A stretch of 64,000 nt of DNA, taken from Sulfuritalea hydrogenivorans sk43H (GTDB lineage Bacteria; Pseudomonadota; Gammaproteobacteria; Burkholderiales; Rhodocyclaceae). Every line of letters begins with the position of its first letter. The stretch's first letter is position 1. The notes beneath the pieces were generated by a model. The model saw nothing but the letters and a program-made list of their open reading frames with translations. It searched no databases and was not told the DNA's origin. The translations under genes and the position numbers were made by a program. Location of the stretch: contig NZ_AP012547.1 of NCBI RefSeq assembly GCF_000828635.1, positions 372,001 to 436,000 of the forward strand, written 5' to 3'. Positions 28,172 to 44,810 of this stretch are shown here, piece by piece.

Positions 28172-28186
28172 CCAAGGGAGAAAAGA

Positions 28187-28492: not shown

Positions 28493-28496
28493 GGCC

Positions 28497-28706: not shown

Positions 28707-28798
28707 TGGGCCTGGACCTGCAAACCGTTTTCCACGGACTGCTTTTCTGCCTGGCGTTCGGCATGATGTATCTGGCCTTTTTCAGCGACTCGCTGTGA
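28703..28798 (+). CDS. 31-residue single-helix micro-protein
   Basis: The frame MMGLDLQTVFHGLLFCLAFG continues to a stop at 28796-28798. Residues about 8-27 form one membrane helix with one Cys. It overlaps the stop of the previous gene (ATGATG at 28703-28708) and has GGGGGGC as a weak ribosome site. The tight packing between coding neighbours suggests it is real; its role is unknown, perhaps a small subunit of the transporter. Confidence 0.5.
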   Translation: MMGLDLQTVFHGLLFCLAFGMMYLAFFSDSL

Positions 28799-28811
28799 GT
28801 GGAGAATCAAT

Positions 28812-29084: not shown

Positions 29085-29086
29085 AG

Positions 29087-29728: not shown

Positions 29729-30018
29729 TGGACATCCTGTTTCATGTCGGCACGGCGGCGGGCGGGCGGCTTTTGTATCCGCTGCTGCTCGCCGCAGGGC
29801 GCGCCGGTTGCCGCGTCGGCGCATTCTTCACGCATGAAGGCGTGCTCGGCCTGCGCGACACCGACCTCGCGGCGGCCCTTGTCGAGGTCGAGCGTGCCGT
29901 GGTCTGCGAGGAATCCTGGCATCGCTTTCTTCCGGGGCTGGCCTGTCCGGTGGAGGCCGGCAGCCAGACCAGCAACAGCGCCCTGATGGGCGAAGCAAGG
30001 AAGGTGGTGAGCCTGTGA
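29728..30018 (+). CDS. DsrE-like sulfur-relay protein
   Basis: A 96-residue protein with a DsrE-type beta-alpha start (MDILFHVGTAAGGRLLYPLL) and Cys in VVCEESW and GLACPVE. DsrE/TusD-like proteins accept sulfur on a conserved Cys from TusA. The similarity is low, so family membership is moderate. It starts on the last base of the previous stop. Confidence 0.55.
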   Translation: MDILFHVGTAAGGRLLYPLLLAAGRAGCRVGAFFTHEGVLGLRDTDLAAALVEVERAVVCEESWHRFLPGLACPVEAGSQTSNSALMGEARKVVSL

Positions 30019-30087
30019 GCGCCCCGCACGGCCGCCCGAAGGGGCGCCAGTCATCGCACGGAGCCGCGCAGCGGCGAACCATCGCCA

Positions 30088-30108
30088 CCCCCTCGCTTGG
30101 CGAGGGGG
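30088..30108 (+). terminator. Strong hairpin between DsrE-like genes
   Basis: CCCCCTCGC at 30088-30096 pairs perfectly with GCGAGGGGG at 30100-30108 around a TTG loop, inside a 109-base insertion of GC-rich repetitive sequence in an otherwise tight operon. There is no T-run, so it may be an intergenic repeat unit or RNA-stability hairpin rather than a terminator. Confidence 0.5.
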
Positions 30109-30127
30109 CCGGGGGGAGGGTTGTCCA

Positions 30128-30406
30128 GTGAGCGAGAAAAAACTCCTGGTGCTGGCGCGGCGCGATCACGCGGAGGCGATGCGCGTGGCGGCCGGCCTGA
30201 CCATCTTCGGCCATCAGGTCGGCCTGGTGTTCATGACCGGACCGGTCGCCGAGACTCCGGAAAATGCCGCGAACGCCGAATTGCTGGAACTGACCGGCAT
30301 CGCGCCGCAAACCACTGTCGCCGAGATGGCCGATGATCTGCCTATGCTCGATGCCGCGACCCTGGCCTTGGCGATGACCAGCGCAGACATCGTGCTTTCC
30401 CTGTGA
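30128..30406 (+). CDS. DsrE-like protein without active Cys
   Basis: A 92-residue protein with a Rossmann-like DsrE layout (KKLLVLARRDHAEAMRVAAGLTIFGHQVGLVFMTG, here split as KKLLVLARRDHAEAM and GLTIFGHQVGLVFM). It has no Cys at all, unlike catalytic DsrE proteins, so it is more likely a structural partner of a heteromeric complex. The start is GTG. Confidence 0.55.
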   Translation: MSEKKLLVLARRDHAEAMRVAAGLTIFGHQVGLVFMTGPVAETPENAANAELLELTGIAPQTTVAEMADDLPMLDAATLALAMTSADIVLSL

Positions 30407-30413
30407 GAGGATC

Positions 30414-30599
30414 ATGAACATTGTGCAATTGAATACCGGTCTGTTCCCCGACGCCCAGACCGTGATTGCCGCCCTGCGGCAGACGACGTCGACGCACCGC
30501 GTCGACGTCGTCGATATCCGGCGTCCGGACCTGCAGCAAAGCGACTGGGACGGCGTCATTGCCGCCATCCTGGCCGCCGATCTGGTTGTCAGCACCTGA
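30414..30599 (+). CDS. Small DsrH/TusB-like protein of the sulfur operon
   Basis: A 61-residue protein (MNIVQLNTGLFPDAQTVIAA to AADLVVST) with one alpha/beta repeat, eight bases after the preceding gene. It may be the third, smallest member of a DsrE/F/H-type set, but sequence similarity is too weak to be sure. It has no Cys. A perfect 14-bp inverted repeat lies inside the gene (30482-30512). Confidence 0.5.
   Translation: MNIVQLNTGLFPDAQTVIAALRQTTSTHRVDVVDIRRPDLQQSDWDGVIAAILAADLVVST
30482..30512 (+). repeat. Perfect 14-bp inverted repeat inside a coding region
   Basis: GACGACGTCGACGC (30482-30495) and its exact reverse complement (30499-30512) flank ACC. The RNA would form a very stable hairpin in the middle of the 61-residue gene, upstream of the secreted rhodanese. 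Confidence 0.7.
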
Positions 30600-30648
30600 A
30601 GCACGCAGCACCCGGCAGAACCCACAAAACCTGATGGAGGAGAGAACT

Positions 30649-31581
30649 ATGAAGAACCTATTGATGAATAGCAGTCGGTCGTTCTGGCTGGCACTGACGT
30701 TCCTGTTCGGTTTCATCGGCACCGCCTTCGCCGCCGATCCGCTGGTCGACGCGGCCTGGGTCAAGGCCAACCTCGGCAAGTCGGGCATCGTCGTCGTGGA
30801 CATGCAACCGACATCGGACTTCCTGCGCGGCCACATTCCCGGCGCGGCGAGCACGGATTTCGCCAAGTCGGGCTGGCGCGAGGAGCGTGCCGACAAGGTA
30901 CCGGACATGCTGCCGGCCAGGTTCGACAAGCTCGCCACCCATATCGGCAGCCTCGGCATCGACAACAACACCCATGTCGTGCTGGTGGCGCCCGGCGGCG
31001 CCTATCTGGACATGGGCTGGGCCACGCGCATCTACTGGACCTTCAAGGTACTTGGCCACGACAAGGTGTCGATCCTCAACGGCGGCATGGCGGCCTGGAC
31101 CAAGGACAAGACCAACCCGGTCGAAACCGGCGCCGCCAAGGTCGCGGCCAAGACCTTCACGCCGCATCCGCGCATGGAGATGGTCGCCAGCCTCGACGAC
31201 GTGAAAGCCTCCAAGGCCAAGGGTGTGATGCTGGTGGATAGCCGTCCGGAAGACCAGTACGTCGGCATCAACCGCAATCCGAAAGCGACGGAAAACGGCA
31301 CCCTGCCCGGCGCCAGGAACCTGCCATCGGGCTGGACCACCGAGAACGGTGGCGGCATGTTCCGACCCAAGTCCGAACTGGAAAAGCTGTTCAAGGTCGC
31401 CAATGTGCCCACCAGCGGCGACCAGATCACCTTCTGCAACACTGGCCATCTGGCTTCGATCGGCTGGTTCGTTTCCAGCGAACTGGTCGGCAACAAGAAG
31501 GTCAAGCTCTACGATGGCTCCATGGTTGAATGGACCCTGGTCAAGGCCGGCCCGGTGGAACAAAAGGTCAGCCTGAAATAA
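30649..31581 (+). CDS. Secreted two-domain rhodanese (sulfurtransferase)
   Basis: A 310-residue protein with a signal peptide (cleavage near AFA-AD, residue 28) and two rhodanese domains. The active loop CNTGHLA begins at Cys263. GHIPGAAS and GTLPGARN are the CH2A-type motifs of each domain. It should move sulfane sulfur from periplasmic donors. A GGAGGAG box precedes the ATG. The cytochrome c gene follows in five bases. The paralogue at 19064 has the same design. Confidence 0.9.
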   Translation: MKNLLMNSSRSFWLALTFLFGFIGTAFAADPLVDAAWVKANLGKSGIVVVDMQPTSDFLRGHIPGAASTDFAKSGWREERADKVPDMLPARFDKLATHIGSLGIDNNTHVVLVAPGGAYLDMGWATRIYWTFKVLGHDKVSILNGGMAAWTKDKTNPVETGAAKVAAKTFTPHPRMEMVASLDDVKASKAKGVMLVDSRPEDQYVGINRNPKATENGTLPGARNLPSGWTTENGGGMFRPKSELEKLFKVANVPTSGDQITFCNTGHLASIGWFVSSELVGNKKVKLYDGSMVEWTLVKAGPVEQKVSLK

Positions 31582-31586
31582 GCCGG

Positions 31587-32192
31587 GTGCGCATTTGCTC
31601 CCTCCTTGCCGGACTGGCGGCGGCGTTTTGTTGCGCCGCCGTCCAGGCCGCGGGAGAGCACGAGCGGCGGCTGGCGGCCGAAGTCGTCGTGATGGCTGGC
31701 GATGTGCGCCGGCTGATGGCCGGTGAAGGAGGGCCGCTGGAACGCGAGGGACTGGTCAAGCGCCTGAACGGGGCGCTTTCTTCGCTGCCGTTGCTGTTGC
31801 GGCGGGCGAGTGAGAATCCCAAACCCGTCGCCGCGATGCGCGACTCGCTTGCCCGCAGGGACTGGCGCGCGCTTTCCGCTGCGCTCGCGGCCTTGAAGCA
31901 ACGTCACCCGTTCGATGCACGCATGCTGCTGGCGGCCGATCCCACGCCGGAAATGATCAGCCTCGGCGCTTCGATCCATCGCACGACCTGCGCCGGCTGT
32001 CATGAAGCCCCTGCCGGTGACAGCCTGCTGCCGGCCAAAAATCTCGCCGTTCAGATCAAGTCGATACCGCGAGAAGAATTTGCCGCCCGCCTGCTGCTGG
32101 GTGTGCGTGGCGACCGAACGGCAAGCTGGGTCAATCCATTCGATGCCCCGGAGTTGGCCGCGCTCATCGCCTTCTATTCCATTTCGCGCTAG
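31587..32192 (+). CDS. Secreted monohaem cytochrome c
   Basis: A 201-residue protein with a signal peptide (cleavage near VQA-AG) and a C-terminal cytochrome c domain with CAGCH at about residue 142. The N-terminal 110 residues form a helical domain of unknown type. The GTG at 31587 is chosen because it directly precedes the hydrophobic signal; an upstream in-frame start would lie inside the rhodanese gene. It is the last gene of the sulfur operon and may take electrons released by sulfur oxidation. Confidence 0.78.
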   Translation: MRICSLLAGLAAAFCCAAVQAAGEHERRLAAEVVVMAGDVRRLMAGEGGPLEREGLVKRLNGALSSLPLLLRRASENPKPVAAMRDSLARRDWRALSAALAALKQRHPFDARMLLAADPTPEMISLGASIHRTTCAGCHEAPAGDSLLPAKNLAVQIKSIPREEFAARLLLGVRGDRTASWVNPFDAPELAALIAFYSISR

Positions 32193-32467: not shown

Positions 32468-32869
32468 TCAGTGCGTGGTCGGCGGATGTTCCGCCACGGT
32501 CTGCCGGTGCCAGTCAGCCACCTCGCTCACGGCATTCTCCAGCGGCATGCCGGCTTCGACGCGATCCATGATCTGGCGTTGCAGAATCGCGCCGAGCATT
32601 TCGACGTTGGCGGCCATCACCGGCGCCAGCTCGCGCAGAAACTGCACGGTAGGCGGATCGTAGGCGTAGGCTGTGAGGTGCGTTTCGAGATCCTTGCTGG
32701 TGGCCAGCGCGTAGCAAAGGTCGTAGAGCAGATGATAGGTGCGCGTGAACGTGTCCGTGTCGCCGCCGACGTTCTGCCGCACCTCTTCGGCCAGTCCCTT
32801 GCGGAAGTCGGCAAGACCGTAGCCGATTTCGCCCTTGACCACTTGCTGCGGCGTGAATTCCCATTCCAT
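32468..32869 (-). CDS. Conserved-looking protein of unknown function, last gene of the molybdoenzyme operon
   Basis: A 133-residue soluble, mostly helical protein (KGEIGYGLADFRKGLAEEVR, YHLLYDLCYALATSKDLETH). No signal peptide, one Cys, no cofactor motif. I do not recognise the family. A GGAG box lies before the ATG at 32867-32869, and it follows the polyferredoxin gene by 19 bases. It may be a cytoplasmic assembly factor. Confidence 0.55.
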   Translation of the reverse strand: MEWEFTPQQVVKGEIGYGLADFRKGLAEEVRQNVGGDTDTFTRTYHLLYDLCYALATSKDLETHLTAYAYDPPTVQFLRELAPVMAANVEMLGAILQRQIMDRVEAGMPLENAVSEVADWHRQTVAEHPPTTH

Positions 32870-32888
32870 GCGCGGTTCTCCTTGCGTT

Positions 32889-33986
32889 CTAGCCGTAGAT
32901 GGCGGTGAAGGCATCCTGATCGTCGCTGCAAACCCGGCAGGTTTCTTCCGGATGCGGTGAAACAAAAAAGCGGTCGCAGCGCTTGCAACGCTGCTTGGCC
33001 AGGCGGATCAGCGGTCGCGCCGGCTGATCGGGCGTGAGATCGAATGTCGCGGCGGCATCCAGCACCCGTGGTTGGCAGACTTCCAGGCAGACCGCGCAAC
33101 CGACGCAACGATCGCGCTGAAACAGCAGCGCCCAGTCGCCGGGGTTTTCGGTGATCGTGATGGCGCCGGTGGGGCAAACGCGAAAACAGGCCTCGCAGAC
33201 GGTGCAGCCGGGGCTGATGGTGATGTCGAGCGCCGGTAGCGCCTCGTGGATGGCGACTTGAAACGGCTGCCCGTCCTTGCGTCCGGCGACGATCTGCAAC
33301 AGCTCGCGCTGTTCCGTCAGCGCATAGGCACCGGGGCGGATGGCTTTGTCGGGCACGGGCTGGGCCGTCGGCTTTTGCTCCACGACTGCAGCGACTTCAT
33401 CGACGCCCCGGCCAAGCAGACGGCGAAACAGGTGACGGCGAGCGGAAGCGAAGCGCGGCTTTTCCGCGGCCACCGCGGCGGTGTCTTCCACGACTTCGAT
33501 CGGCAGCCATGGGTCGGGCGCGGCAGCGGCCCGCAACTCGGCCACGGACTCCAGGTTCGCCGCCAGTTGCGCCGCACCCTTGGTGCCATGCGCGCAATCG
33601 GTACAAAGGGAAGCGCCGAACAAGGTGGTCGGCAGCCGGCGCTTTTCGATATAGGCCAGCAGCGAGGCATCGAGTGCGCCGAGGCAGGGCACGATCGCGT
33701 CGGCGGGATGGCCCGAGGGCGCGCAGGCGATGCTGAAGCGCCCGGTCTTGATCGCCTGGCGCAGCATGTCGATGGGCTTGAAACTGTCCGCCGCAAAGGC
33801 GCCCGTGCGACAAGCGGAAACGCACAGCGCGCAGTTGCGGCATTGGTCCGCGTCAATCGCCGCGCGGGTATCGGAGAGCCTTATCGCCTGGTGCGGACAG
33901 GCATCCATACAGCGCGCGCATTCGCTGTAGCGATAGCGGTAACGCACGCATCGCGAGGGGCGAAATTCCGGGATGCCGACGCTCAC
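32889..33986 (-). CDS. Multi-[4Fe-4S] cytoplasmic protein with C-terminal zinc-ribbon-like motif
   Basis: About 365 residues without signal peptide or membrane helix. The N-terminal part has two ferredoxin-type clusters (CARCMDACPHQ, CRNCALCVSACRTG), a middle domain has spaced Cys (IACAPSGH, VPCLGALD, SLCTDCAHG), then two more clusters follow (CTVCEACFRVCPTG, CVGCAVCLEVCQP) and a final Cys-pair module (CKRCDRFF ... CRVC). It starts with GTG that overlaps the previous stop (GTGA). I find no named homologue. It may feed electrons to, or mature, the molybdoenzyme. Confidence 0.75.
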   Translation of the reverse strand: MSVGIPEFRPSRCVRYRYRYSECARCMDACPHQAIRLSDTRAAIDADQCRNCALCVSACRTGAFAADSFKPIDMLRQAIKTGRFSIACAPSGHPADAIVPCLGALDASLLAYIEKRRLPTTLFGASLCTDCAHGTKGAAQLAANLESVAELRAAAAPDPWLPIEVVEDTAAVAAEKPRFASARRHLFRRLLGRGVDEVAAVVEQKPTAQPVPDKAIRPGAYALTEQRELLQIVAGRKDGQPFQVAIHEALPALDITISPGCTVCEACFRVCPTGAITITENPGDWALLFQRDRCVGCAVCLEVCQPRVLDAAATFDLTPDQPARPLIRLAKQRCKRCDRFFVSPHPEETCRVCSDDQDAFTAIYG

Positions 33987-34456
33987 TTCTTTTTGTCCGG
34001 CCGCAGTTCCTGCAGGGGTTTGCCCTGCTCGCAGGTATTGGCGGGAATGACGAAGCTCACCGGGCCATTCATGGCGGCATCCATGCCGGCGGCGGCGAGC
34101 AGGGACAGCGACGCGGCCTTCCAGGTCGGGAGGCCGCCCTTGACGGCGAAAATCGGTTTGCCCGGATGCTTGCGCCCCAGTGCGTTGGCAATGCCCAGCG
34201 CATCCCGGTCGCGGTCGGCGATGACCACCACGATGGCCGTCGGGTTGATCTTCAGGTCGGTGCGCCAGGGCAAGGCGTTGTCCAGAACCTCGCGCGTGCG
34301 GCTCGCGGCGGCGCGGCCATCGATCACGCAGCAGGGCGGTTTGGCGGCCAAAGCGGTGACCAGTTGCGTCTTGTCGGCGAGGCTGACCTGCGCCTGCGCC
34401 ACGCTGGCGAACAGGACGCACAGGGGAGCAAGCAGCGAGCCGATGCGCGACCTCAT
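33983..34456 (-). CDS. Secreted rhodanese-like protein
   Basis: A 157-residue protein with a signal peptide (cleavage near AQA-QV, residue 22) and a rhodanese-like domain (VIDGRAAASRTREVLDNALPW, VVVIADRDRDALGIANALG, FAVKGGLPTWKAA). The active-site Cys expected after the third strand is replaced by Asp/Arg (IADRDRD), while Cys pairs are found elsewhere (PPCCVID, ANTCEQG). It may bind rather than transfer a sulfur compound. Translational overlap with both neighbours. Confidence 0.65.
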   Translation of the reverse strand: MRSRIGSLLAPLCVLFASVAQAQVSLADKTQLVTALAAKPPCCVIDGRAAASRTREVLDNALPWRTDLKINPTAIVVVIADRDRDALGIANALGRKHPGKPIFAVKGGLPTWKAASLSLLAAAGMDAAMNGPVSFVIPANTCEQGKPLQELRPDKKK

Positions 34457-35169
34457 GCGGCTGACCTTGCGGCCCCGAGCAGGCTGTCGCGCTGTTCATG
34501 GGCGGCCTCGGGCAAAACGATCTGTCGGCACTGACCGTAATCCACCCAGTCGGCAAGATGCGGCTGCGGGTCCGCCAGAGGCCCGATCCACAAGCTGTCG
34601 CCAAATTGCTCGACCAGTCCGGCACAGAGATTGAGGTCGGTGTCGTCGCGGATGTCGACCTGCACCAGGAAGTGCGACGCGCCCAGTTCGCGCAGGGCGG
34701 CCAGCCACCACGACGCAAGGGTGCCGGTACCCGTGCCATCGGCGCGCAGTACCTCCCAGGCGGGTTCGCAATGGGATGGCGTGACGGTCTTGAAGTCGGC
34801 ATTCGAGACCGTTTCGAACGACCAGCTGATGCTTTGCCGTCCAAGCGGCGCGTAGATGCCGATGCGTTCGGCGCCGTGGGCAGCGACCAGCCGATCGATG
34901 ACCGTGCTGTCGATCAGCGCGGCTTCGCCAACGAATACGCAATCGGCCCCTGCCGTGAGCAGCGTGACGGCGCGCTGTTCGTCGCCACGGGGGAGGACGA
35001 TGCCGGCGCACAGCGAGGCGACGGCTTCGACGCCCGGCTCGTCGAACACCAGATCATCGGCTTCGACCCCGGTGCCGCCTTCGAATGCCACCCAGCGCCG
35101 TACCGTCAGCGCCGACTCCTGGGGGGCAACTGCTTCGATCGCATCGGATTCCGCTACGCCGGCTTGCAT
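34453..35169 (-). CDS. HisA-like TIM-barrel protein
   Basis: A 238-residue protein. ELGASHFLVQVDIRDDTDLN and LWIGPLADPQPHLADWVDYG follow the pattern of HisA/HisF-type barrels, but phosphate-binding glycines and catalytic Asp residues are only partly kept. It is out of place in a respiratory operon, so a recruited function in cofactor or enzyme maturation is possible. Residues 18-27 (ESALTVRRWV) are encoded by the dispersed repeat (35097-35119). Its stop overlaps the next start. Confidence 0.5.
   Translation of the reverse strand: MQAGVAESDAIEAVAPQESALTVRRWVAFEGGTGVEADDLVFDEPGVEAVASLCAGIVLPRGDEQRAVTLLTAGADCVFVGEAALIDSTVIDRLVAAHGAERIGIYAPLGRQSISWSFETVSNADFKTVTPSHCEPAWEVLRADGTGTGTLASWWLAALRELGASHFLVQVDIRDDTDLNLCAGLVEQFGDSLWIGPLADPQPHLADWVDYGQCRQIVLPEAAHEQRDSLLGAARSAA
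35097..35119 (+). repeat. Dispersed 23-bp repeat, copy 9 (inside HisA-like gene)
   Basis: In reverse orientation relative to its gene, with one mismatch in the core (CGTCAGCGCCGACT). It is translated as ESALTVRR on the coding strand. Confidence 0.7.
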
Positions 35170-35175
35170 GACGAT

Positions 35176-35619
35176 TCAGGTGGTGTATTCGAACTTCGGA
35201 TAGACAAAAGGATACAACGGGCAGTCGGCATCCGGCGCCAGCCCGACCAGCAGCGGGCGCAGTTCCTGAAGGCCGCCGAGAATGGGCTCGACATTCACGC
35301 CGAGAAAGCGCGGGCGATACTTCGCCAGCGCCATCTGCGCGTCGTCGATCAGCAGCAGCGCGCCGTCCTGATTCTGGTTCTGGGTGAAGAATAGCGCCAG
35401 CGTGGCGAAGGCGAGGCCTTGCAGGAACTCGGCCTCCGGATCCCTGGTGCCGAGCAGGCTGTTGCGGATCAGGCGCGACCAGCGCTCGTTGAGCCAGTCG
35501 TGCAGCGCCCCCAGATCGTTGCTGTTCCACATTACCGCGACATCCCTCCAGTCGAGCTGCGAGAGCACGCCGCGGTCCGGTGCCGGCAATTCCTTCGGAG
35601 TGGCGAGGTCGAGAATCAT
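35176..35619 (-). CDS. Conserved-looking operon protein of unknown function
   Basis: A 147-residue soluble protein (MILDLATPKELPAPDRGVLS to YPKFEYTT). Motifs LHDWLNERWSRLIRNSLLGT and LLIDDAQMALAKYRPRFLGV stand out, but I do not know the family. It lies between the TorD-like chaperone and the HisA-like gene. I chose the ATG at 35617-35619 with no close upstream alternative inside the conserved part. Confidence 0.55.
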   Translation of the reverse strand: MILDLATPKELPAPDRGVLSQLDWRDVAVMWNSNDLGALHDWLNERWSRLIRNSLLGTRDPEAEFLQGLAFATLALFFTQNQNQDGALLLIDDAQMALAKYRPRFLGVNVEPILGGLQELRPLLVGLAPDADCPLYPFVYPKFEYTT

Positions 35620-35629
35620 GGTGGCCGCC

Positions 35630-36499
35630 CTATCGCAGATCGCCCAGGCTGCGCATTTCCTCCAGGCGCCGCACATTGTCGGGCGCCGACAGCGTGGTGG
35701 ACAGCGCGTCCGTCATGCAGCCGTTGCAAACCGGTTCGTTTGGATTGAATTCGACGCGGATGTCGTCCTTGGGCACCTCCAGCCGCGCCTGGTCGGCATC
35801 TTCGATGCGCAGGCTCATCGCCTCGATTTCCTCGGCCGCGAAGCCACCGAGGAAACGCGCCATTTCACGGTAGAACGAGTGCTCGGCGGTGCGTTCGATC
35901 AGGCGGCTGTAGCCGCGCACCCAGCGTCCGAGATGCTGGCTCCAGAAGCGCTTGATTTCCTTTTCCAGGCGGCGATGCGTGACGGCGTCGCCTTGCTCCA
36001 GCGCAGTCGCCCCGCGCTCCAGCAGCTCGGCGACGAACATCAATTCAATGCCCAGCTGATCGGCAAACACTTCGAAGCGGCCCGGCTGGAGTACGAAGCC
36101 GAGGCGCTTGTAGGTCTGCATGGCGTCGAAATTCGGCTGCTGCTTGTAGCGGCCGGTCAGTCGCACCGACTCTACCGGCGGGAAGCCGCCGGAGGAGGCG
36201 AACTGCGTGGTGTACTCGATGGCCAGCGCTTCGAGCAGCGCGTCCTGCGGAGCATCCAGAAAATCAGCATCGAAGCGCAGGCCGGCTTCAGCAAGTTGTG
36301 CCAGCGCCTCCGGGCTGCGCAACGCCGTGACGAACTCGCGCCCCGGCTCTTCGACGAACACGCCCGAGAGCAGGCGATAGATTTCGGCGCGGGCGCGCCA
36401 GTCGGCTGCCGTTTCGGCGGGCGACGCCAGCACGGTCGCCGTCTCGCCGGCGCCGACTTCCTCTTCGCTGTCATCCAGAGCCAGTACGTTTTTCAGCAT
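35630..36499 (-). CDS. TorD/DmsD-family molybdoenzyme chaperone
   Basis: A 289-residue cytoplasmic chaperone. The all-helical TorD fold is recognised by RAEIYRLLSGVFVEEPG, EYTTQFASSGGFPPVES and DQLGIELMFVAELLE. It would bind the twin-arginine leader of the catalytic subunit encoded upstream. It has an unusually long N-terminal part and a C-terminal Cys pair (VCNGC). Residues 14-21 (VGAGETAT) are encoded by the dispersed repeat. It is separated from the catalytic gene by a terminator-like hairpin, so it is likely made in smaller amounts. Confidence 0.82.
   Translation of the reverse strand: MLKNVLALDDSEEEVGAGETATVLASPAETAADWRARAEIYRLLSGVFVEEPGREFVTALRSPEALAQLAEAGLRFDADFLDAPQDALLEALAIEYTTQFASSGGFPPVESVRLTGRYKQQPNFDAMQTYKRLGFVLQPGRFEVFADQLGIELMFVAELLERGATALEQGDAVTHRRLEKEIKRFWSQHLGRWVRGYSRLIERTAEHSFYREMARFLGGFAAEEIEAMSLRIEDADQARLEVPKDDIRVEFNPNEPVCNGCMTDALSTTLSAPDNVRRLEEMRSLGDLR
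36438..36460 (+). repeat. Dispersed 23-bp repeat, copy 10 (inside torD-like gene)
   Basis: Core variant CGCCGGCGCCGACT, in reverse orientation relative to its gene, translated there as VGAGETA near the N-terminus. Confidence 0.75.
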
Positions 36500-36512
36500 G
36501 TCAATTCCTCGG

Positions 36513-36545
36513 AAAAAAAGCCGGCCCGCCGGGTATGGCGGGCCG
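36513..36545 (-). terminator. Intercistronic terminator/attenuator after the catalytic subunit
   Basis: GGCCCGCC (36523-36530) pairs with GGCGGGCC (36537-36544); on the minus strand the hairpin is followed by seven Ts (complement of AAAAAAA at 36513-36519). This is a good Rho-independent terminator placed inside the operon between catalytic subunit and chaperone, so partial read-through is expected. Confidence 0.75.
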
Positions 36546-36603
36546 CAATTACCCGGCCGCAAGGGGGAGGAGTGCCGGCCGGTCATCCCTCCTCAGGGAG
36601 TGC

Positions 36604-39243
36604 TCAATGGCCGCCGCCTTCATGGTGCTTGACGCTGCCGGGGCCGGCCCACGACGCCATCTCCGGGTGCATCTTGCGATGCAGGTCGCCGGTGTAGGCG
36701 TAGCGCATGGTTTCCTTGTAGGCCGCGTAGTGCTTCTCCCAATCCCCTTGCGAATCGCCGTATTTGTCGTTCGGGCCGGCCTTGGTCACCTTGACCACGG
36801 TGTCGTACCAGCCCTGCGAGCCGCCGATCGGATCGGCCACCACCGGGATGATGTTGTTGGGATGGACGCCCTTGTCGTCCCACCAGACGTTGTTGAGGTC
36901 CGGATCGTCCGCACCGTGGCTGGCTTCGCTCTTCTTGTCCTTCAGCTTGAGCGTGGCCAGGCGGCCGTATTCCCAGTGGCCGAAGCCGGTCGGGATGGCC
37001 ACTGTCCTCGGGTGGATGCCCTCGGTGACGTAGGCCTTGGTGACGAGGTGGCCCACCTTCGACTCGACGCGCACCAGATCACCGGTCTTGATGCCGAGCT
37101 TGGCCGCCGTGCTGGTGCCGATCCACATCGGGTTGCTGTGGGCGATCTCGGCCAGCCATTTCACCGCCGCCGTGCGCGACTGCTTCATCACGTTGAGCTT
37201 GAAGGTGACCATCACCAGTTCGTCGTCCTTCATCGCCTCGTGCCACGGAATGCGCTTGAAGGTCGGCATCGGGTTGAAGCCATACTCGGCCCACTTGTCG
37301 ACGCGCACGTTGATGATGCGGTTGCCGGTGGGGAAGCCGACGTAGTTCTTGCCGTTGCGCTTGACGCCGATGGCCTTGCCGTTCTTGGTGATGACGCCGT
37401 TCTTGTCGGTCGCCGTGCCGGCCATGTCGGCGGCGGACAACTCCTTCTTGAACAGGCCGTACTCGGCCTTGATTTCGCGGCCGGTCTTGTCCGACACCTT
37501 GCCGGTCTTCGGATTGAGCTTGCCGTAGATCGGCCAGACGCCATGCTTCTTGAGGAAGTTGAGGCCGCCGGCTTCCTTGAGTCCGGGCACGTTGTCGAAG
37601 TGGTGGCGCATGTAATCCTCGCCATCCTTGAAGTTCCAGAACTGCTTCATGCCGCGCTTGCCGTCGGGATCCAGCTTCCAGATGATGTCGCGCATCATGA
37701 TGCGGTTTTCGCGCGATTCGCCCAGCGACTTGTGCACCGGCTGGCGAATGCCCAACCACGGCCATAGCGAATTGGGCATCGATTCCGGTTCCCAGCGCTC
37801 CAGATACGGGCAGTCGGGCAGGATCAGGTCGGCCAGCGCGGTCTCCTCGCCCATGAAGGGGCTCATCGACACCAGGTAGGGAATCAGCTTCTCGTCCTTG
37901 AACAATTTTCCCCATACCGCCATGGCGCCGGGATTGGTATAGACCGGATTGTCCTGGTAGGTGAAGTAGACGTTGATCTTCTGCTTGCCGTCGGCGATCC
38001 AGAAGGGCACCAGGTGACTGACCTTGTGCCCGGCCAGCGGGTATTCGGTCGGGTGCGCGAGGTAGGAATCCTTCTTCGGCTTGCCCGGCTCCGGGCTCGG
38101 CTGCGGCCAGCCCATGCCGCGCGGCAGGCAGTAGCCGCCCTTTTTCTCGACGTTGCCGGTCATGATCGGCAGCATCATGCAGGAGCGCTCGTTGTAGGAG
38201 CCGTAGAGGTGCTTGGCCGGGCCGCGATAAGTGAATAGCGTGGCCGGCTTGGTGGTGGCGAACTCGGTCGCGATGCGCTCGATGGTTTCGGCCGGCACGC
38301 CGGAAATCTTCGACGCCCATTCCGGGGTGAATTGCTTGTAATGCTCCTTGAGTTCCTTCACCGTGACATTGGTCCAGGTCTCGATGAACTCGCTGTCCTG
38401 CAGGTCGTCGCGCAGGATCACATGGCCCATGGCCAGGGCCACCGCGCCGTCGGTCCCCGGATGCACCGGCACCCACTCGTCGGAGAAGCCGGCGGTGTTC
38501 GACAGCCGCACGTCGAAGGTGACGATCTTCATGTGGTTGTCGACGCGGCCTTCCGTCACGCGCTGCGACAGCGGGTTGTGGAAGTAGGCGGCTTCAAGGA
38601 TGTTGGAGCCGAAATTGAGCACGTACTTGGCATTGGCGAAGTCCGGCGTCTCGATGTCCGGGCCCCAGGTGGGTTCCATGCCGATCTTCTTCGACGATTC
38701 GCAGACCGAGGTGTGATTGACCACGGTGGCCGAGCCCAGTGTCTTCATGAAGCGATCGACGGCACCGCCGGAGCGGTTGCGGCCGTATTTCAGCATGATG
38801 GTGTTGGGGTCTTCCTTGAGCGCCGCATCGAGCTTGCCGGCGAGTTCGGTCAGCGCCTCGTCCCAGGTGATGCGCTTCCACTTGCCCTCGCCGCGCGCAC
38901 CGACGCGCTTCAGCGGATAAAGGATGCGATCCGGGTCGTAGCTGTACCACATGCCGGCGTTGCCCTTGGCGCAGAGCCGGCCGCGCGTCGAGACATGCTC
39001 CGGATTGCCTTCGAGCTTGACCACGCGGTCGTTCTCGACATAGGCGATGGCGCCGTCCTGGATGTTGCAGACGTGGCAGTTGATCGGGATGGCCTTGCGT
39101 TCGGCGCCGGTGACCGGGCCGAAATCCTTGCCGCCCAGTTCGTGCTCCATGGCGTTGAGCAGACGGGGGGCGGCAGCAGCGGCAGCACCGGTGGTGGCGC
39201 TGACCTTGAGGAAGGTGCGACGCGTGACTTTTGGCATTTCCAT
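36604..39243 (-). CDS. Molybdopterin oxidoreductase catalytic subunit (CISM family), substrate unknown
   Basis: An 879-residue periplasmic molybdoenzyme with a Tat leader (RRTFLK, residues 8-13). The iron-sulfur site reads Cys56-x2-Cys59-x3-Asp63-x27-Cys91: spacing is exactly that of the family but the third ligand is Asp. The probable Mo ligand is Cys181 (HTSVCESS), as in the polysulfide/thiosulfate/arsenate branch. MGD-binding stretches such as VLNFGSNILE, VHPGTDGAVALAMG and TGFGHWEYG are present. With the ferredoxin and NrfD anchor encoded before it, it forms an A-B-C complex. I cannot place it in a named clade; a sulfur or metalloid oxyanion is likely from context. Confidence 0.85.
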   Translation of the reverse strand: MEMPKVTRRTFLKVSATTGAAAAAAPRLLNAMEHELGGKDFGPVTGAERKAIPINCHVCNIQDGAIAYVENDRVVKLEGNPEHVSTRGRLCAKGNAGMWYSYDPDRILYPLKRVGARGEGKWKRITWDEALTELAGKLDAALKEDPNTIMLKYGRNRSGGAVDRFMKTLGSATVVNHTSVCESSKKIGMEPTWGPDIETPDFANAKYVLNFGSNILEAAYFHNPLSQRVTEGRVDNHMKIVTFDVRLSNTAGFSDEWVPVHPGTDGAVALAMGHVILRDDLQDSEFIETWTNVTVKELKEHYKQFTPEWASKISGVPAETIERIATEFATTKPATLFTYRGPAKHLYGSYNERSCMMLPIMTGNVEKKGGYCLPRGMGWPQPSPEPGKPKKDSYLAHPTEYPLAGHKVSHLVPFWIADGKQKINVYFTYQDNPVYTNPGAMAVWGKLFKDEKLIPYLVSMSPFMGEETALADLILPDCPYLERWEPESMPNSLWPWLGIRQPVHKSLGESRENRIMMRDIIWKLDPDGKRGMKQFWNFKDGEDYMRHHFDNVPGLKEAGGLNFLKKHGVWPIYGKLNPKTGKVSDKTGREIKAEYGLFKKELSAADMAGTATDKNGVITKNGKAIGVKRNGKNYVGFPTGNRIINVRVDKWAEYGFNPMPTFKRIPWHEAMKDDELVMVTFKLNVMKQSRTAAVKWLAEIAHSNPMWIGTSTAAKLGIKTGDLVRVESKVGHLVTKAYVTEGIHPRTVAIPTGFGHWEYGRLATLKLKDKKSEASHGADDPDLNNVWWDDKGVHPNNIIPVVADPIGGSQGWYDTVVKVTKAGPNDKYGDSQGDWEKHYAAYKETMRYAYTGDLHRKMHPEMASWAGPGSVKHHEGGGH

Positions 39244-39265
39244 GTTCTCTATCTCCTCTGACCTG

Positions 39266-40129
39266 TCAGTACAGGGTCTGCAATTGCTGGGGGCCCATCA
39301 GCAGGGCATAGCGCAGGGCGGCACTGCCGACCAGGATCAGCACGGCGGACAGCATCAAACCGGTCTGCTGCTCGCGCACATGGGCGGCCAGTAGAAGCGC
39401 TACGGGAGCCGCGGTGCCCGCCAGCAGGCCGACCCCGATGAAGATCATTCCCATGGTGCCGGTGGTCATGATGATGAAGGTCAGTTCCTGCGCCGATCCG
39501 CCGTAGTTGGTGGTGCCGAGAATGGAGACCAGGATCACGCCCACGGCGCCGGTCGACCACAGCATGTACTCACGCAAGACCTTCTGCGCGGCGTCATTGC
39601 CGCCGGTCAGCAGCGCGCCGACGGCGGAACCGGAGGCGACGGCCAGGGCGACGAACAGCACAGGCATGATCGGCGTGTTCCACACCGGCCGCGACTGGTG
39701 CACCGAAAGGTCGTAGCCGGTGTAGACCGGCAGGCCCAGCGCCAGCAGCGCGGTGACCAGCGCCAGCATCTTGCCGCGCGCGCTGTCTTCCGCCTTGCGC
39801 AGCTCAAGGATGTACAACACCGAGCAAACGCCGAAGGCGACGATGTTCAACGAGCCCCAGGCCAGCGGCGAGGTGAAGTTGAGGTAGGCCGGGTTGAGGA
39901 CATTGAAGAAGCGCAGCGGTTGCGACAGATCGGCGATCAGCAGCATGCCGCCCAGCGCCAGCAACACCATCGAACCGTAAGCCGCTTTTTCACGCAGCGG
40001 TCTCAGCGCCGGCGTGATCCAGGAGCCGTAGGACATGAACGACAGGCCGGCGAGAATGCCGATAATGAAAAAATAGACGGCATAGCTCGCGTGCCATGAC
40101 ACATCGTGAAACCAGACGTATTCACCCAT
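39266..40129 (-). CDS. NrfD/PsrC-family membrane anchor subunit
   Basis: A 287-residue membrane protein with about eight helices, typical of the NrfD/PsrC quinol-interacting subunit (SHASYAVYFFIIGILAGLSF-like start, LRFFNVLNPAYLNFTSPLAWG). It would oxidise quinol (or reduce quinone) and exchange electrons with the ferredoxin subunit. It lies between the ferredoxin and catalytic genes. Confidence 0.87.
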   Translation of the reverse strand: MGEYVWFHDVSWHASYAVYFFIIGILAGLSFMSYGSWITPALRPLREKAAYGSMVLLALGGMLLIADLSQPLRFFNVLNPAYLNFTSPLAWGSLNIVAFGVCSVLYILELRKAEDSARGKMLALVTALLALGLPVYTGYDLSVHQSRPVWNTPIMPVLFVALAVASGSAVGALLTGGNDAAQKVLREYMLWSTGAVGVILVSILGTTNYGGSAQELTFIIMTTGTMGMIFIGVGLLAGTAAPVALLLAAHVREQQTGLMLSAVLILVGSAALRYALLMGPQQLQTLY

Positions 40130-40139
40130 GATGTCCCTC

Positions 40140-40850
40140 TCAGATCTTGAAATTGCGCTTGAAGGCGGAACGCTCGGGTTCCATCACTTCGGGCTTGTGG
40201 TAGGCATCGCGGCCGAACTCGGTCGCGTTGCGATCGGCGCCGATGTAGAAGACGTGCGGCTTGGTGCCTTCTTCCGGGCGCAGCACCTGGGTCGGGTTGT
40301 TCGCCACCAGATACGACACCTCGCTGTTCGGATCGTTGATGTCGCCGAACACGCGCGAGCGTCCGATGCAGGTCTGCACGCAGGCCGGCACCAGGTTTTG
40401 CGATACGCGGTGGAAACAGAAGGTGCACTTGTCGACCACGTTGGTGATCGGCGTGTAAGTGCGATGGGACGGCAGCATGAAGCGCGCGTTGTAGGGGCAG
40501 GCCGCCATGCAGGAGCGGCAGCCGATGCAGCGCTCGTAGCGCTGCAGAATGAAGCCGCCGTCCTCGACCTTGAAGGTGGCGTCCACCGGGCAGTTACGCA
40601 CGCAGGGCGCGTCGTCGCAGTGGTTGCACAGGCGAGGCAGGAACTGTCGTTTGACGTTGGGATACTTGCCGACGACCTTGTAGGGAACCCAGGTGCGATT
40701 GACCCCGAGCGGGGTGTCGTATTCGGCCTTGCACGCAACCTGGCAGGCCATGCAGCCGATGCAGCGCCGCGTATCGACCACCATGGCAAAACGCCTCTTG
40801 CCGGCGATGCCGCGTGTCTCGATGGGAGAGACCCTCAATTCTTCACTCAT
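40140..40850 (-). CDS. Four-cluster ferredoxin subunit of the molybdoenzyme
   Basis: A 236-residue PsrB/DmsB-type ferredoxin with four [4Fe-4S] Cys groups (CIGCMACQVACK, CNHCDDAPCVRNCP, CIGCRSCMAACP, CTFCFHR with VPACVQTC). It moves electrons between the NrfD anchor and the catalytic subunit. It has no leader and would be co-exported with the Tat-bearing subunit. AGGAGG lies eight bases before the ATG at 40848-40850. It is the first gene of the minus-strand operon, behind a sigma-54 promoter. Confidence 0.9.
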   Translation of the reverse strand: MSEELRVSPIETRGIAGKRRFAMVVDTRRCIGCMACQVACKAEYDTPLGVNRTWVPYKVVGKYPNVKRQFLPRLCNHCDDAPCVRNCPVDATFKVEDGGFILQRYERCIGCRSCMAACPYNARFMLPSHRTYTPITNVVDKCTFCFHRVSQNLVPACVQTCIGRSRVFGDINDPNSEVSYLVANNPTQVLRPEEGTKPHVFYIGADRNATEFGRDAYHKPEVMEPERSAFKRNFKI

Positions 40851-40945: not shown

Positions 40946-40961
40946 CGCAACATCCGGGCCA
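40946..40961 (-). promoter_or_regulatory. Sigma-54 promoter of the minus-strand molybdoenzyme operon
   Basis: On the minus strand TGGCCCGGATGTTGCG has GG and GC in the -24/-12 spacing (ten bases between) and matches the consensus TGGCACG-N4-TTGCW at all but two positions. The start codon is about 96 bases further. Two GTTACG-type inverted repeats lie 80-140 bases upstream. Confidence 0.75.
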
Positions 40962-41150: not shown

Positions 41151-42029
41151 ATGAATGCAGGCGATCACAGTTCCGCAAGGCTGCGTCGACGGTTCTTCCT
41201 TCAGTCGGCGCTAGTCGTTGCCGCGATACCGCTATTGCCCGTGCGGGCAGAGCCCGGCGCCTTGCGCATCGGGCTGACCCCCGTCTTCCTCGACGACCAG
41301 ATGAGTTTTCTGACGCGCTGGCGTGTGTGGCTGGAACGCCGCCTGAAGCGCCCGGTGATGTTCGTGCAAAGGGGCAGCTACCGGGAAGTGCTGGACCTGA
41401 TTCGTGGCGGCAAGATCGATTTTGCCTGGATCTGCGGCTATCCCTATGTGCGTTATCGGCACGAGTTGCGCCTGGTGGCCGTACCTCTTTGGCGGGGACG
41501 CCCGTACTACCAGTCCTATCTCATCGTACCGGCCGATGACCGGAAGTCGAACGCGCTGACCGACCTGCGTGGCAAGGTGTTCGCCTATTCTGATCCCGAC
41601 TCCAATTCAGGTTACCTCTATCCTCAGTACCGGCTGACCACCCTGGGGGAGAATCCGGCGACGTTCTTTTCCCGCAATTTCTTCACATGGGGCCACCGCA
41701 AGGTGGTCGAAGCCGTCGGCGTCGGGCTGTCCGATGGCGGTGCGGTGGACGGTTATGTCTGGGAGACCCTGGCCGAAACCCATCCTGCGCTTACACGCGC
41801 CACGCGAATCATCGAAAGATCGCCGGACCTCGGCCACCCGCCGTTCGCGGCACGCCCGGACATACCGGAACAGGAACTGCAGCAGTTTCGCGCCGCCCTG
41901 CTGGGGATGCCTGCCGATGCCGAGGGCGCGGAATTGCTGCGCCTGTTGCGACTGGATGGCTTTGTCGCCGGGCAGCCTTCCTTGTTCGACGAGATTGCCC
42001 GAATGGCGGCGCGGGTGCGACGGGCATGA
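41151..42029 (+). CDS. PhnD-like periplasmic oxyanion-sensing protein
   Basis: A 292-residue protein with a Tat-like leader (RRRFFLQSALVVAA) and a PhnD/phosphonate-type binding-protein fold (LRIGLTPVFL, VLDLIRGGKIDFAWICGYPY, YPQYRLTTLG). In AioX-, ArxX- and TorT-like systems such proteins bind the substrate and signal to an adjacent sensor kinase. The kinase start overlaps its stop (ATGA). A close paralogue is at 50725. It probably senses the substrate of the molybdoenzyme encoded divergently. I start at ATG 41151 because it directly precedes the leader. Confidence 0.85.
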   Translation: MNAGDHSSARLRRRFFLQSALVVAAIPLLPVRAEPGALRIGLTPVFLDDQMSFLTRWRVWLERRLKRPVMFVQRGSYREVLDLIRGGKIDFAWICGYPYVRYRHELRLVAVPLWRGRPYYQSYLIVPADDRKSNALTDLRGKVFAYSDPDSNSGYLYPQYRLTTLGENPATFFSRNFFTWGHRKVVEAVGVGLSDGGAVDGYVWETLAETHPALTRATRIIERSPDLGHPPFAARPDIPEQELQQFRAALLGMPADAEGAELLRLLRLDGFVAGQPSLFDEIARMAARVRRA

Positions 42030-43474
42030 TCGTCCTGGCCGATCTTTCGCTGCGCTGGAAGATTCCGCTGCGCGTCATGGGGGCCGTGCTGGGCACGGCC
42101 CTGGCGGTCACCGCCGCGCTGGTAACGCGCGAGTACGACGAAATGCGCCAGAATCTCGAGGTCCATGCCAAAAGCCTGGCACGGGTGCTGGCCAACACGC
42201 TGGTGGCGCCGGTACTGCACGACGACATCTGGCGCGCCTACGAAATCCTCCAGTCGGCTCGTGACCCGGTCGCCATCGTTCCCGAATTGCAGGCTGACGT
42301 GGTGCTGGTGACCGACGCGGAATTTCGGGTATTCGTGTCCAGTCGGCCGCGCGATTTTCCGATCGGCAGCAGTCCGGCGAGTCAGGGCGGTGTTTATGGT
42401 CGATTGCGCGCCGCCATGATGAAAGCCAAACTCACCGAGCAGCAGGTGATCGAGCCGGCCGATTCCGCCCATTACTTCGTCATGTCGCCGCTGACAGCCG
42501 ACGGCGTTGCGCTCGGCCATGTCATTCTCGGCTATTCAAAAGTCTCGTTTCTGCCGCGATTCATCGGCTTGGTGGGGCAGGCGGCCTTCGTTACCCTGCT
42601 GGTACTCGTGCTGATCATGCCAATTTCATGGGTTTGGGCGCGGCGAACGGGCGCGCCCCTGCTCGCCCTGGCCGAGGCCATGCGCCATGTGCCAGGCCAA
42701 CTTGAGATGGCGAGCCTCGCAAACCTGCCCAGGAGTCGCGACGAGATCGGACAGTTGGGTGATGCCTTTGGCCGCATGGTGAGTGAGTTGAAGAAGAAGG
42801 AAGACCTGGAGGAGCAGATGCTGGTCACGGAACGGCTGGCGGCTGTCGGACGGTTGTCGGCGGGCATTGCGCACGAAATCAACAATCCGCTGGGAGGCAT
42901 GCTGACCGCCATCAAGACCTATCAGCGCCACGGCGCCGGAGATCCATTGGCGAACCAGACACTGGCCTTGCTGGAGCGGGGGCTTTCGCAGATACGCAAT
43001 ACCGTTGCCGCGCTGCTGGTAGAAACCAAGCCAACGGACCGCCCGTTCCAGCCGGCGGATATCGACGATCTGCTGATCCTGGTCGAGGCCGAGGCACATG
43101 CGCGTTCGGTCACCATCGTCGCGGAAGGCCCGCTCGAGCATCCGCTTTCGCTGCCTGCCACGCTGATGCGTCAGATCCTGCTCAATCTCCTGCTCAATGC
43201 CATTGCCGCCGCCGACGAGGGTGGCCGCGTCAGGGTCGGTCTCACGACCAGCGACGGAATGCTGCGGATTTCCGTATGCAACGACGGCAAACATATTCCC
43301 GACGAACAGATGGCCTATCTTTTCGAACCCTTTGCCAGCGGTCGCGAGAAGGGCTACGGTCTCGGGCTTTGGGTGGTCTATCAGATCGTGCAGCAACTCG
43401 GCGGCGGGCTTACCGTGGATAGCGAGCCCGGCTGCACGACCTTCCGCGTCGAAATACCTTATGCCGAGAACTGA
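42026..43474 (+). CDS. Membrane histidine kinase partnered with the PhnD-like sensor
   Basis: A 482-residue kinase: a helix (about 12-33), a periplasmic domain of about 140 residues (DDIWRAYEILQSA is shared with its paralogue), a second helix (about 182-203), HAMP, and a HisKA/HATPase core with the phospho-acceptor His near 283 (GIAHEINNPLGG) and G-boxes GYGLGLWVVYQI. It is of the NtrB/DctB type that signals to NtrC-like regulators. Overlaps on both sides show a three-gene operon. Confidence 0.88.
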   Translation: MIVLADLSLRWKIPLRVMGAVLGTALAVTAALVTREYDEMRQNLEVHAKSLARVLANTLVAPVLHDDIWRAYEILQSARDPVAIVPELQADVVLVTDAEFRVFVSSRPRDFPIGSSPASQGGVYGRLRAAMMKAKLTEQQVIEPADSAHYFVMSPLTADGVALGHVILGYSKVSFLPRFIGLVGQAAFVTLLVLVLIMPISWVWARRTGAPLLALAEAMRHVPGQLEMASLANLPRSRDEIGQLGDAFGRMVSELKKKEDLEEQMLVTERLAAVGRLSAGIAHEINNPLGGMLTAIKTYQRHGAGDPLANQTLALLERGLSQIRNTVAALLVETKPTDRPFQPADIDDLLILVEAEAHARSVTIVAEGPLEHPLSLPATLMRQILLNLLLNAIAAADEGGRVRVGLTTSDGMLRISVCNDGKHIPDEQMAYLFEPFASGREKGYGLGLWVVYQIVQQLGGGLTVDSEPGCTTFRVEIPYAEN

Positions 43475-44810
43475 ATCCGCGCTGCGCCTTTGCCTCATCG
43501 AGGATGACGAGATCATGGGTGAATCCCTGGTCCAGTTGTTTCGCCTGGAAGGCTTCGCCGTGGATTGGTGCCGTACGGCGGCGGCGGGCGCCGAAGCGCT
43601 GGCGGCCCACCGTTACAGTGCCGTGGTAAGCGACATCAGGCTGCCGGATCGCAATGGCGGCGACCTGTTTCTCGATCTGAAGGAGACGCTCACCGGCTTG
43701 CCGCCCTTCCTCTTCATGACGGCCTTCGGCACCATCGACAGAGCGGTGGAACTGCTCAAGGCGGGTGCGGCGGACTACGTCACCAAGCCCTTCGATGTCG
43801 ACGTTCTCGTGCAGAAGGTTCGCGGCCTGGCCGAGGGATACGGCGCGGTCAGCGATATCGGCGACCAGTCGCTCGGGGTTTCGCCGGCCATGAAGCGCAT
43901 TGCCGAATCGATTCCGCGGCTTGCGCGCCATGCCGCCGCGCTGCTGATTACCGGCGAATCCGGAGCCGGCAAGGAGCATGTGGCGAAGCTGTTCCACCAT
44001 CACGCGATCGGCGCGACGGGTGAGTTCGTCGCCGTCAATTGCGCCTCGATTCCCGAGTCGCTGATGGAATCCGAACTCTTCGGTTACGAGCGCGGCGCCT
44101 TCACCGGTGCGGTCAAGGCCAAGCGCGGGTTGTTCGAACAGGCCCATCAGGGCATCCTGTTTCTCGACGAGATCGGAGAGATGCCGCTGTCGATGCAGGC
44201 CAAGATGCTGCGTGTCCTGCAGGACAAGCGCTTGACTCGCCTCGGGGGCGAGAAAGCCATCACCGCGGATTTCCGGCTGGTCTGCGCCACTCACCGCGAC
44301 CTGCGCGCCATGGTCGACGCCGGGCAGTTTCGCGAAGACCTCTATTACCGGATCCATGTGATTCACCTGCGCATTCCGCCACTGCGGGAGCGGCCGGAGG
44401 ACATCCGCTGGTTCGTTCGACATTTCGTCGAGGAATTCAACCACGCGCATTCAGGCGAGCGGCGGCGCATCGATCCGCGTACCGAGCAGGCCCTGCTCAG
44501 CTACGCATGGCCGGGTAACGTGCGAGAGCTGAAGCATGCGGTGGAGCGCGCCTGCATCCTGTCAAATGGACCCTTGCTCGGCGCCGAGGCGTTCTTCGGC
44601 GGCAGCCTCGACGATGAGGTCGGAACTTCACAGGGCAGCTCCGAATCCCTGGCCGAATACCTCATGGCCTGCGAACGTGACTATCTTTCGCTGATACTGG
44701 AGCGGCACGGCGGACACATGACCCATGCCGCGGAGGCCCTGGGGATTACGCGCAAGACCCTCTGGGAAAAGTTGCGTCGGCTCGGAATCAAGGCGAGGGG
44801 CGAGCCATAA
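43461..44810 (+). CDS. NtrC-type sigma-54 response regulator
   Basis: A 449-residue regulator: receiver (LCLIEDDE, phospho-acceptor Asp in VVSDIRLPD), AAA+ domain with Walker A GESGAGKE, intact GAFTGA sigma-54 loop, Walker B LFLDEIGEM, and a Fis-type helix-turn-helix at the C-terminus (THAAEALGITRKTLWEKLRR). It overlaps the kinase by 14 bases. The divergent operon has a sigma-54 promoter and two dyads (41040, 41084) that this protein probably binds. Confidence 0.9.
   Translation: MPRTESALRLCLIEDDEIMGESLVQLFRLEGFAVDWCRTAAAGAEALAAHRYSAVVSDIRLPDRNGGDLFLDLKETLTGLPPFLFMTAFGTIDRAVELLKAGAADYVTKPFDVDVLVQKVRGLAEGYGAVSDIGDQSLGVSPAMKRIAESIPRLARHAAALLITGESGAGKEHVAKLFHHHAIGATGEFVAVNCASIPESLMESELFGYERGAFTGAVKAKRGLFEQAHQGILFLDEIGEMPLSMQAKMLRVLQDKRLTRLGGEKAITADFRLVCATHRDLRAMVDAGQFREDLYYRIHVIHLRIPPLRERPEDIRWFVRHFVEEFNHAHSGERRRIDPRTEQALLSYAWPGNVRELKHAVERACILSNGPLLGAEAFFGGSLDDEVGTSQGSSESLAEYLMACERDYLSLILERHGGHMTHAAEALGITRKTLWEKLRRLGIKARGEP

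Follow-up and report, generated by a model that had tools for sequence, protein, structure and literature searches.

Two arsenite oxidases, AIO and ARX, are recognised in the available part of PMC6549141, which describes the Arx system as an arxB2ABCD cluster with a divergent arxXSR and states that the arxB2 ferredoxin, whose place varies, seems specific to arx clusters. The periplasmic sensors of such systems are treated in the accessible portion of PMC5908839. Of ten oxyanions assayed, arsenite was the only one bound by AioX and ArxX, and arsenate and phosphate were those bound by ArrX; the AioX pocket consists of Tyr88, Cys106, Tyr131, Ser161, Ser163, His192 and Asp210, and the loop residues Val56 and Phe57 of AioX are missing from ArrX. 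Here we analyse a nine-gene operon in a stretch of 64,000 nucleotides (nt) of Sulfuritalea hydrogenivorans sk43H (contig NZ_AP012547.1, positions 372,001 to 436,000), called the window below. The operon runs on the minus strand from 40850 to 32468 and encodes an Fe-S subunit (B), an NrfD-type membrane subunit (C) and a molybdopterin-containing catalytic subunit (A), followed by a TorD-like chaperone and five accessory proteins (Table 1). Judged from sequence, it may encode a quinone-linked periplasmic molybdoenzyme that acts, probably as an oxidase, on trivalent arsenic, As(III), or thio-As(III).

The gene set is conserved beyond chance, because it recurs in carriers of 19 genera. Carriers, by which we mean genomes in which the catalytic subunit reaches an identity of 79%, make up 27 of the 297 genomes in the family sample, 8 of 200 in the order sample (two further matches have 43% identity) and 2 of 398 in the phylum sample (the other 16 matches have 38–47%); together they are 32 different genomes, that of the window included. 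Across the homologous loci the identity of the catalytic subunit is 79–96%. Besides the window, 31 loci were fetched, and since three contigs stop inside the cluster, 28 loci were scored. The genes for TorD, the 147-residue U147, the HisA-like protein, the polyferredoxin and the 133-residue U133 are all present after the catalytic gene in 28/28. The rhodanese-like gene is intact in 27; in the exception, G261 (locus L061, about 5530–5790), the rhodanese domain is lost, with a signal-peptide-like start and the tail SSFVIPKNTCESG kept. The cysteine tail of this protein, IP-x-(N/D)TC(E/Q)-x-G at about 20 residues from the C-terminus, occurs once in 30 of the 32 regions and nowhere else there; in the remaining two, G450 and G170, the contig stops short of it. 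Nine loci with distant catalytic homologues (36–42% over the open reading frame, ORF) have B in every case, a recognisable C in four and TorD in two, and in the stretch fetched none has U147 or the HisA-like, rhodanese-like, polyferredoxin or U133 genes.

That the accessory genes travel with the catalytic subunit bears out the first-pass annotation, made from the letters alone, which had proposed an uncharacterised respiratory molybdoenzyme system. All nine ORFs, including its ferredoxin/NrfD/catalytic/TorD set, lie at the positions first given. Its description of the junctions as mostly start-stop overlaps needs correction: in the window there are 4-nt overlaps at two junctions only (HisA-like/rhodanese-like and rhodanese-like/polyferredoxin), and the remaining intergenic gaps are 6 to 104 nt. 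A terminator-like hairpin between A and TorD, detected by one folding criterion in 22 of 31 loci including the window, might make the accessory genes less strongly expressed than B-C-A.

The same annotation suggested respiration of a sulfur or thio-metalloid compound, and the thio-metalloid part of this guess may still hold. It had passed over a divergent AioX-type sensor, kinase and sigma-54 regulator, an ArrA-type cluster and acr3, all of which point to arsenic, and simple sulfur respiration was set aside as the lead reading after the AioX match and the arsenic neighbourhood came to light. The sensor gene, X, begins 300 nt from the first start codon of the operon on the opposite strand, and in all 28 loci with enough upstream sequence it is likewise divergent and upstream. 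X matches the solved arsenite sensor AioX with an E-value (E) of 3.5e-68, against 5.6e-40 for the arsenate sensor ArrX. All seven AioX pocket residues and the Val56-Phe57 loop are kept in 29/29 core sensors (the neighbouring paralogue L065 is left out; those of G436, G450 and G238 are counted as core by place), which puts X, by the sequence of its pocket, among the AioX/ArxX sensors. Ten further X proteins in the carrier regions have Ala56 and Thr163 instead, and these sit near arr, arx or another MopB gene where the contig shows it. Compared with the AioXSR proteins of aerobic AioBA, the operon shares a sensor pocket identical at the compared residues and a sigma-54-dependent regulator; its catalytic subunit, in contrast, has no more than the superfamily in common with AioA.

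Upstream of the operon there is a sigma-54-like site. Across 29 loci scanned, the best site lies 67–142 nt before the first gene, and in 24 of them at most 8 of 200 shuffled sequences score equally high. A scan of this kind always returns a best site; weight is therefore placed only on the score relative to shuffles and on the steady position.

The Cys-containing pocket could bind other thiophilic species, as would suit an enzyme for another such metalloid species, e.g., antimonite or methylated arsenite, and Acr3 families, whose genes recur near the operon, are also linked to antimonite. We nevertheless find such an enzyme very unlikely: none of AioX, ArxX and ArrX bound antimonite, according to the portion of PMC5908839 that is available.

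The neighbourhood agrees with the sensor. Of the 32 carriers, 15 have an Acr3 gene no more than 40 kb from the operon, as against about 2% expected per genome, an expectation that assumes 1.1 copies in 3.7 Mb; because related genomes are not independent, such cases were also counted by genus, giving 10 of 19. In G261, G326 and G132, U133 is followed by genes of the ArsR, ArsC and Acr3 types. In Azoarcus sp. KH32C (carrier G407) the operon, with AZKH_RS23115 as its catalytic gene, is on plasmid pAZKH. There a single hypothetical ORF separates the regulator from an adjoining group made up of a helix-turn-helix gene, arsC, arsD, arsA and acr3, and the annotation lists the products of the four accessory genes as hypothetical. 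The window itself encodes an ArsP permease as well as Acr3, and an ArrA-type cluster (50725–55407) lies about 11 kb from the operon, with its own divergent AioX-like sensor of the Ala56, Thr163 variant and an ArrA-type gene carrying the ArrA motif RGRY. Arsenate respiration is reported for S. hydrogenivorans sk43H in the accessible part of PMC6397845. Two large multihaem-type cytochrome genes (45956–47872 and 57514–59514) flank the ArrA-type cluster.

Known arsenic oxidoreductases were sought in the carriers, several of which are drafts, at E 1e-60. Among the candidates scored, AioA was found in 5 of 32 carriers and an ArrA or ArxA-type gene in 10, and none of AioA, ArxA and ArrA in 21. Carriers with no match to any of the three include the well-assembled G407, G268, G331, G294 and G214, the first-look candidates being partly scored in G268, G331 and G294 for ArrA/ArxA and in G294 for AioA. 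Sensor type, sensor place and arsenic setting are well supported. They bear on the proposal that the operon serves ordinary polysulfide or thiosulfate respiration under a borrowed AioX-type regulator. The top curated family of A is PhsA, and the window organism has sulfur-oxidising relatives (PMC6397845, in the part available); however, wherever there is upstream sequence (28 of 28 loci) regulator and operon are divergent, and arsenic genes are again neighbours of the operon in 10 of 19 genera, so that we regard this as highly improbable.

Table 1. Features of the window discussed in the text.
Feature	Position	Strand	Remarks
B, four-cluster Fe-S subunit (TtrB/DsrO/ArrB-like)	40140..40850	-	nearest TtrB, DsrO, ArrB; all under curated cut-offs
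C, NrfD-type membrane subunit	39266..40129	-	
A, molybdopterin (MopB) catalytic subunit	36604..39243	-	TAT-type (twin-arginine translocation) signal; 879 residues; Cys-type Mo ligand motif NHTSVCESSKK
Terminator-like hairpin and T run	about 36513..36545	-	between A and TorD
TorD-like chaperone	35630..36499	-	
U147	35176..35619	-	147 residues; DUF309-like
HisA/HisF-like protein	34453..35169	-	
Secreted rhodanese-like protein	33983..34456	-	active-site loop without Cys; conserved Cys42, Cys43, tail Cys142
Polyferredoxin	32889..33986	-	two [4Fe-4S] pairs, middle Cys region, terminal Zn-ribbon-like CxxC pairs
U133	32468..32869	-	133 residues; all-helical; no known family
Sigma-54-like site	40946..40961	-	TGGCCCGGATGTTGCG; 111 nt before B
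X, AioX-type periplasmic sensor	41151..42029	+	
S, sensor histidine kinase	42026..43474	+	
R, sigma-54-dependent response regulator	43461..44810	+	
ArrA/ArrB-type pair	52031-55407		967 and 223 bits; cut-offs 1600 and 450
Acr3	7214-8284		
Convergent operon	27116-32192		YeeE/YedE sulfur-transport, TusA and rhodanese domains

Subunit A belongs to the MopB (DMSO reductase) family, having the molybdopterin, dinucleotide-binding and Fe4S4 domains and a cysteine at the molybdenum-ligand position; its TAT-type signal scores below the Pfam cut-off. It falls short of every curated family compared, as follows: PhsA, the best match, 354 bits against an NCBIfam cut-off of 694; ArrA, 180 against 1600; TtrA, 142 against 1750; and AioA (TIGR02693), 36 against 359. 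In trees with 12 core rows, the core A sequences form one clade with a Shimodaira–Hasegawa-like approximate likelihood ratio (SH-aLRT) support of 100, sister to uncharacterised homologues. Arr and Arx together form another clade, with support 99 in the second tree, and A lies outside it. Both trees are without own_L101, far_L052, nb_G000 and duplicate rows, and the second also drops arr_L111 and far_L043 (wrong reading frames), own_L098, nb_G148, far_L050 and far_L053. The subunit falls, as first predicted, in no characterised clade that the trees could test, a set that, of the named PsrA, PhsA, SrrA, SreA and AnrA sequences, covers Thermus PsrA alone; this sequence takes no settled place in the trees. 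A search of 200 genomes for PhsA examples at E 1e-90 gave no match, but neither did its controls, so that it carries no weight as to absence.

All 12 core rows have the motif (Y/W)GR(N/D/Q) together with NHTSVCESSKK. Neither GRGWG, the motif of ArxA, nor (R/K)GRY, that of ArrA (both as given in the available text of PMC6549141), is present in A, and membership of Arr/Arx is ruled out by tree and motif. The active-site motif also differs from that of Thermus PsrA. The ArrA positions R165, H189, C193 and K198 are kept in A and Y166 and Y210 are not, in what we take to be the ArrA numbering (anchored on Cys193) and residue roles; the retained GR, H and K positions lend the arsenic reading weak support.

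Two groups of relatives may be mentioned here. The sister-clade homologues L042, L044, L047, L090 and L093 have no aligned molybdenum-ligand cysteine and, by sequence, may lack catalytic activity or use another ligand. Another MopB clade that is likewise uncharacterised, found in G436 (L136), G228 (L064/L120), G150 (L127) and G020 (L128), has the motif HGHGK or WGQGK with HRTTxCE and adjoins AioX-like sensors or arx-type clusters.

Set beside Arx (PMC6549141, as far as available), the operon has in common the divergent X, kinase and sigma-54-type regulator, the Fe-S, NrfD and TorD genes and a polyferredoxin of like layout; it differs in an A that is outside the Arr/Arx clade and has no GRGWG, in its gene order B-C-A and in four extra accessory genes. 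With the Phs/Psr/Srr branch it shares the best curated match, a Cys-type site and a B-C-A type complex, whereas the score is half the PhsA cut-off, the motif is unlike that of Thermus PsrA and the sensor is AioX-type. The nearest idea in the literature searched is a SoeABC-like candidate of Thioalkalivibrio, likewise proposed for arsenite or thioarsenate oxidation outside Aio/Arx (PMC6620896, in the part available); that protein is cytoplasmic, with no TAT signal, while A has a TAT-type signal and is accompanied by an arsenite-type sensor. Unnamed novel branches near the PsrA/PhsA/SrrA enzymes are reported in the accessible part of PMC10100899. In the open-licence literature searched, no title or abstract start describes this cluster, and two KH32C protein accessions gave no match. 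The antimonate reductase AnrA was also considered, and the literature searched on it yielded nothing about the cluster.

Reductases use a like subunit architecture, and in the window the ArrA-type cluster, at a distance of about 11 kb, has an X of its own. Both facts would suit an arsenate or thioarsenate reductase passing electrons from quinol to arsenic. We judge such a reductase quite unlikely, as the loop of AioX/ArxX, missing from ArrX, is present in the operon's sensor and as A stands outside the Arr/Arx clade.

The accessory proteins are largely as first described. The 147-residue protein, called an unknown in the first-pass annotation, is a real gene but has a family resemblance: it is DUF309-like in 22/22 aligned members, the window copy scoring below the Pfam cut-off. 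A predicted HisA-like barrel is upheld by a HisA/HisF-like assignment in 17 of 21 members, and the profile matches a HisF chain at 4.9e-8 over positions 53–103. U133 stays an unknown, with no consistent Pfam family among its members; of five models of this helical protein, the best has a predicted local distance difference test (pLDDT) score of 90 and the others 50–77, and the model has no PDB match under E 1.

The multi-cluster protein with a zinc-ribbon-like end is a polyferredoxin ending in CxxC pairs, as predicted. It aligns over its full length, at 25–29% identity, with five proteins in arx-type clusters (G182, G020, G315, G150 and G353), three of which lie between X and the ArxA-type gene and the remaining two at the cluster's far end. 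Most cysteines match in position, both in the two dicluster ends and in the middle region with PCLG and C..C, as well as in the terminal zinc-ribbon pairs. From position and cysteine layout, rather than from a named reference sequence, it would follow that the five are ArxB2. By full-length homology and shared cysteine layout, the operon polyferredoxin is itself of the ArxB2 type.

The secreted protein is assigned as rhodanese-like in 10 of 21 members. The loop cysteine is absent, as had been noticed, so that the protein does not qualify as a catalytic rhodanese; its conserved cysteines are at 42–43 and in the C-terminal tail. The best PDB match of its profile, at E 0.003, is 1qxn, 'sulfide dehydrogenase', which we take to be Sud of Wolinella. 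The structural model has a pLDDT of 63, with the tail under 50, too weak for cysteine geometry, and its Foldseek matches are rhodaneses, none reaching E 0.001.

The sulfur-trafficking character first ascribed to the convergent neighbour is confirmed by its YeeE/YedE, TusA and rhodanese domains; a 92-residue ORF in it, a candidate DsrE-like protein, has no Pfam match. This operon resembles the YTD cluster of sulfur disproportionators. TusA lies near the nine-gene operon in only 4 of 32 regions (G000, G200, G311 and G268; spans unequal), and a link to the YTD cluster was rejected on that count. In G182 (L083, 2746–5335), TusA and MoaA-type genes, the latter by Pfam, are inserted next to U133, and in G035 (L084, 15341–17556) genes resembling TusA and MoaA, the latter judged by eye, stand around U133; both are carriers of other families. 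These insertions point to a role of some accessory proteins in maturing the cofactor or supplying sulfur. They thereby keep alive both the thioarsenite variant of our proposal and an alternative in which the enzyme is an arsenite-induced polysulfide or thiosulfate reductase, its periplasmic sulfide trapping As(III) as thioarsenite or arsenic sulfide and the rhodanese-like protein being a Sud-like sulfur feeder. The top place of PhsA among the curated families of A, the match to 1qxn and the convergent operon of the window would all fit this sulfide-trapping enzyme. The motif that departs from Thermus PsrA, the loop that has no cysteine and the scarcity of TusA in regions of unequal span do not, and we consider it unlikely.

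We return to an arsenic-responsive respiratory module, in which A probably oxidises trivalent arsenic and is linked to quinone, and we give this reading about an even chance. Its computed basis is the operon and its conservation, the sensor pocket, the sigma-54-like site, the neighbourhood and the homology of the polyferredoxin; from these we infer the substrate, the direction of electron flow and every accessory role. As(III) is proposed as substrate because, as a rule, the ligand of an X protein is also the substrate of the enzyme that it serves, and we infer its oxidation rather than its reduction. The proposed sequence of events is as follows. Periplasmic arsenite, or a thio form, would bind the AioX-like X through its cysteine; X would signal through the kinase S to the sigma-54 regulator R, which would fire the divergent operon promoter. 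TorD would mature A, perhaps helped by the DUF309-like protein, the HisA-like protein and U133. Exported by the TAT pathway, A would dock through B on the NrfD-type C and oxidise trivalent arsenic at its Cys-ligated molybdenum, the electrons reaching the quinone pool by way of B and C. The secreted rhodanese-like protein, the most conserved part of which is the C-terminal tail cysteine, may carry or present a thiophilic substrate, arsenic or sulfur, to A.

Several observations weigh against this reading. X beside arr and X beside arx share one variant pocket, so the pocket alone cannot separate an oxidase from a reductase. PhsA, the nearest curated family of A, is a sulfur enzyme, and the GR and H...C motifs are also found in another MopB protein of the host genome, own_L097. 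In 17 of 32 carriers the contig with the operon has no Acr3 gene at a distance of 40 kb or less, and one of the 17 lacks Acr3 altogether. ArrA is weakly associated with the operon in the family sample (present in 4 of 27 carriers and in 10 of 270 non-carriers, p 0.03). Finally, in 5 of the 29 loci scanned the sigma-54-like site is no better than shuffles, 45 to 161 of 200 of which match it.

It is tempting to go further and to propose, tentatively and with some doubt, a third respiratory arsenite oxidase lineage apart from Aio and Arx in the Rhodocyclaceae and neighbouring families, in which a Cys-tail carrier, on a SoxY-like principle, presents As(III) or thioarsenite, and to which the HisA-like, DUF309-like and U133 proteins belong. 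These three have not been described for any molybdoenzyme in the open-licence literature searched. Arsenite oxidation controls arsenic mobility in water, and if the operon is a third arsenite oxidase, surveys of aioA and arxA miss it. The operon gives four poorly known protein families a concrete setting for functional tests and leads to a phenotype prediction for one named isolate, Azoarcus sp. KH32C.

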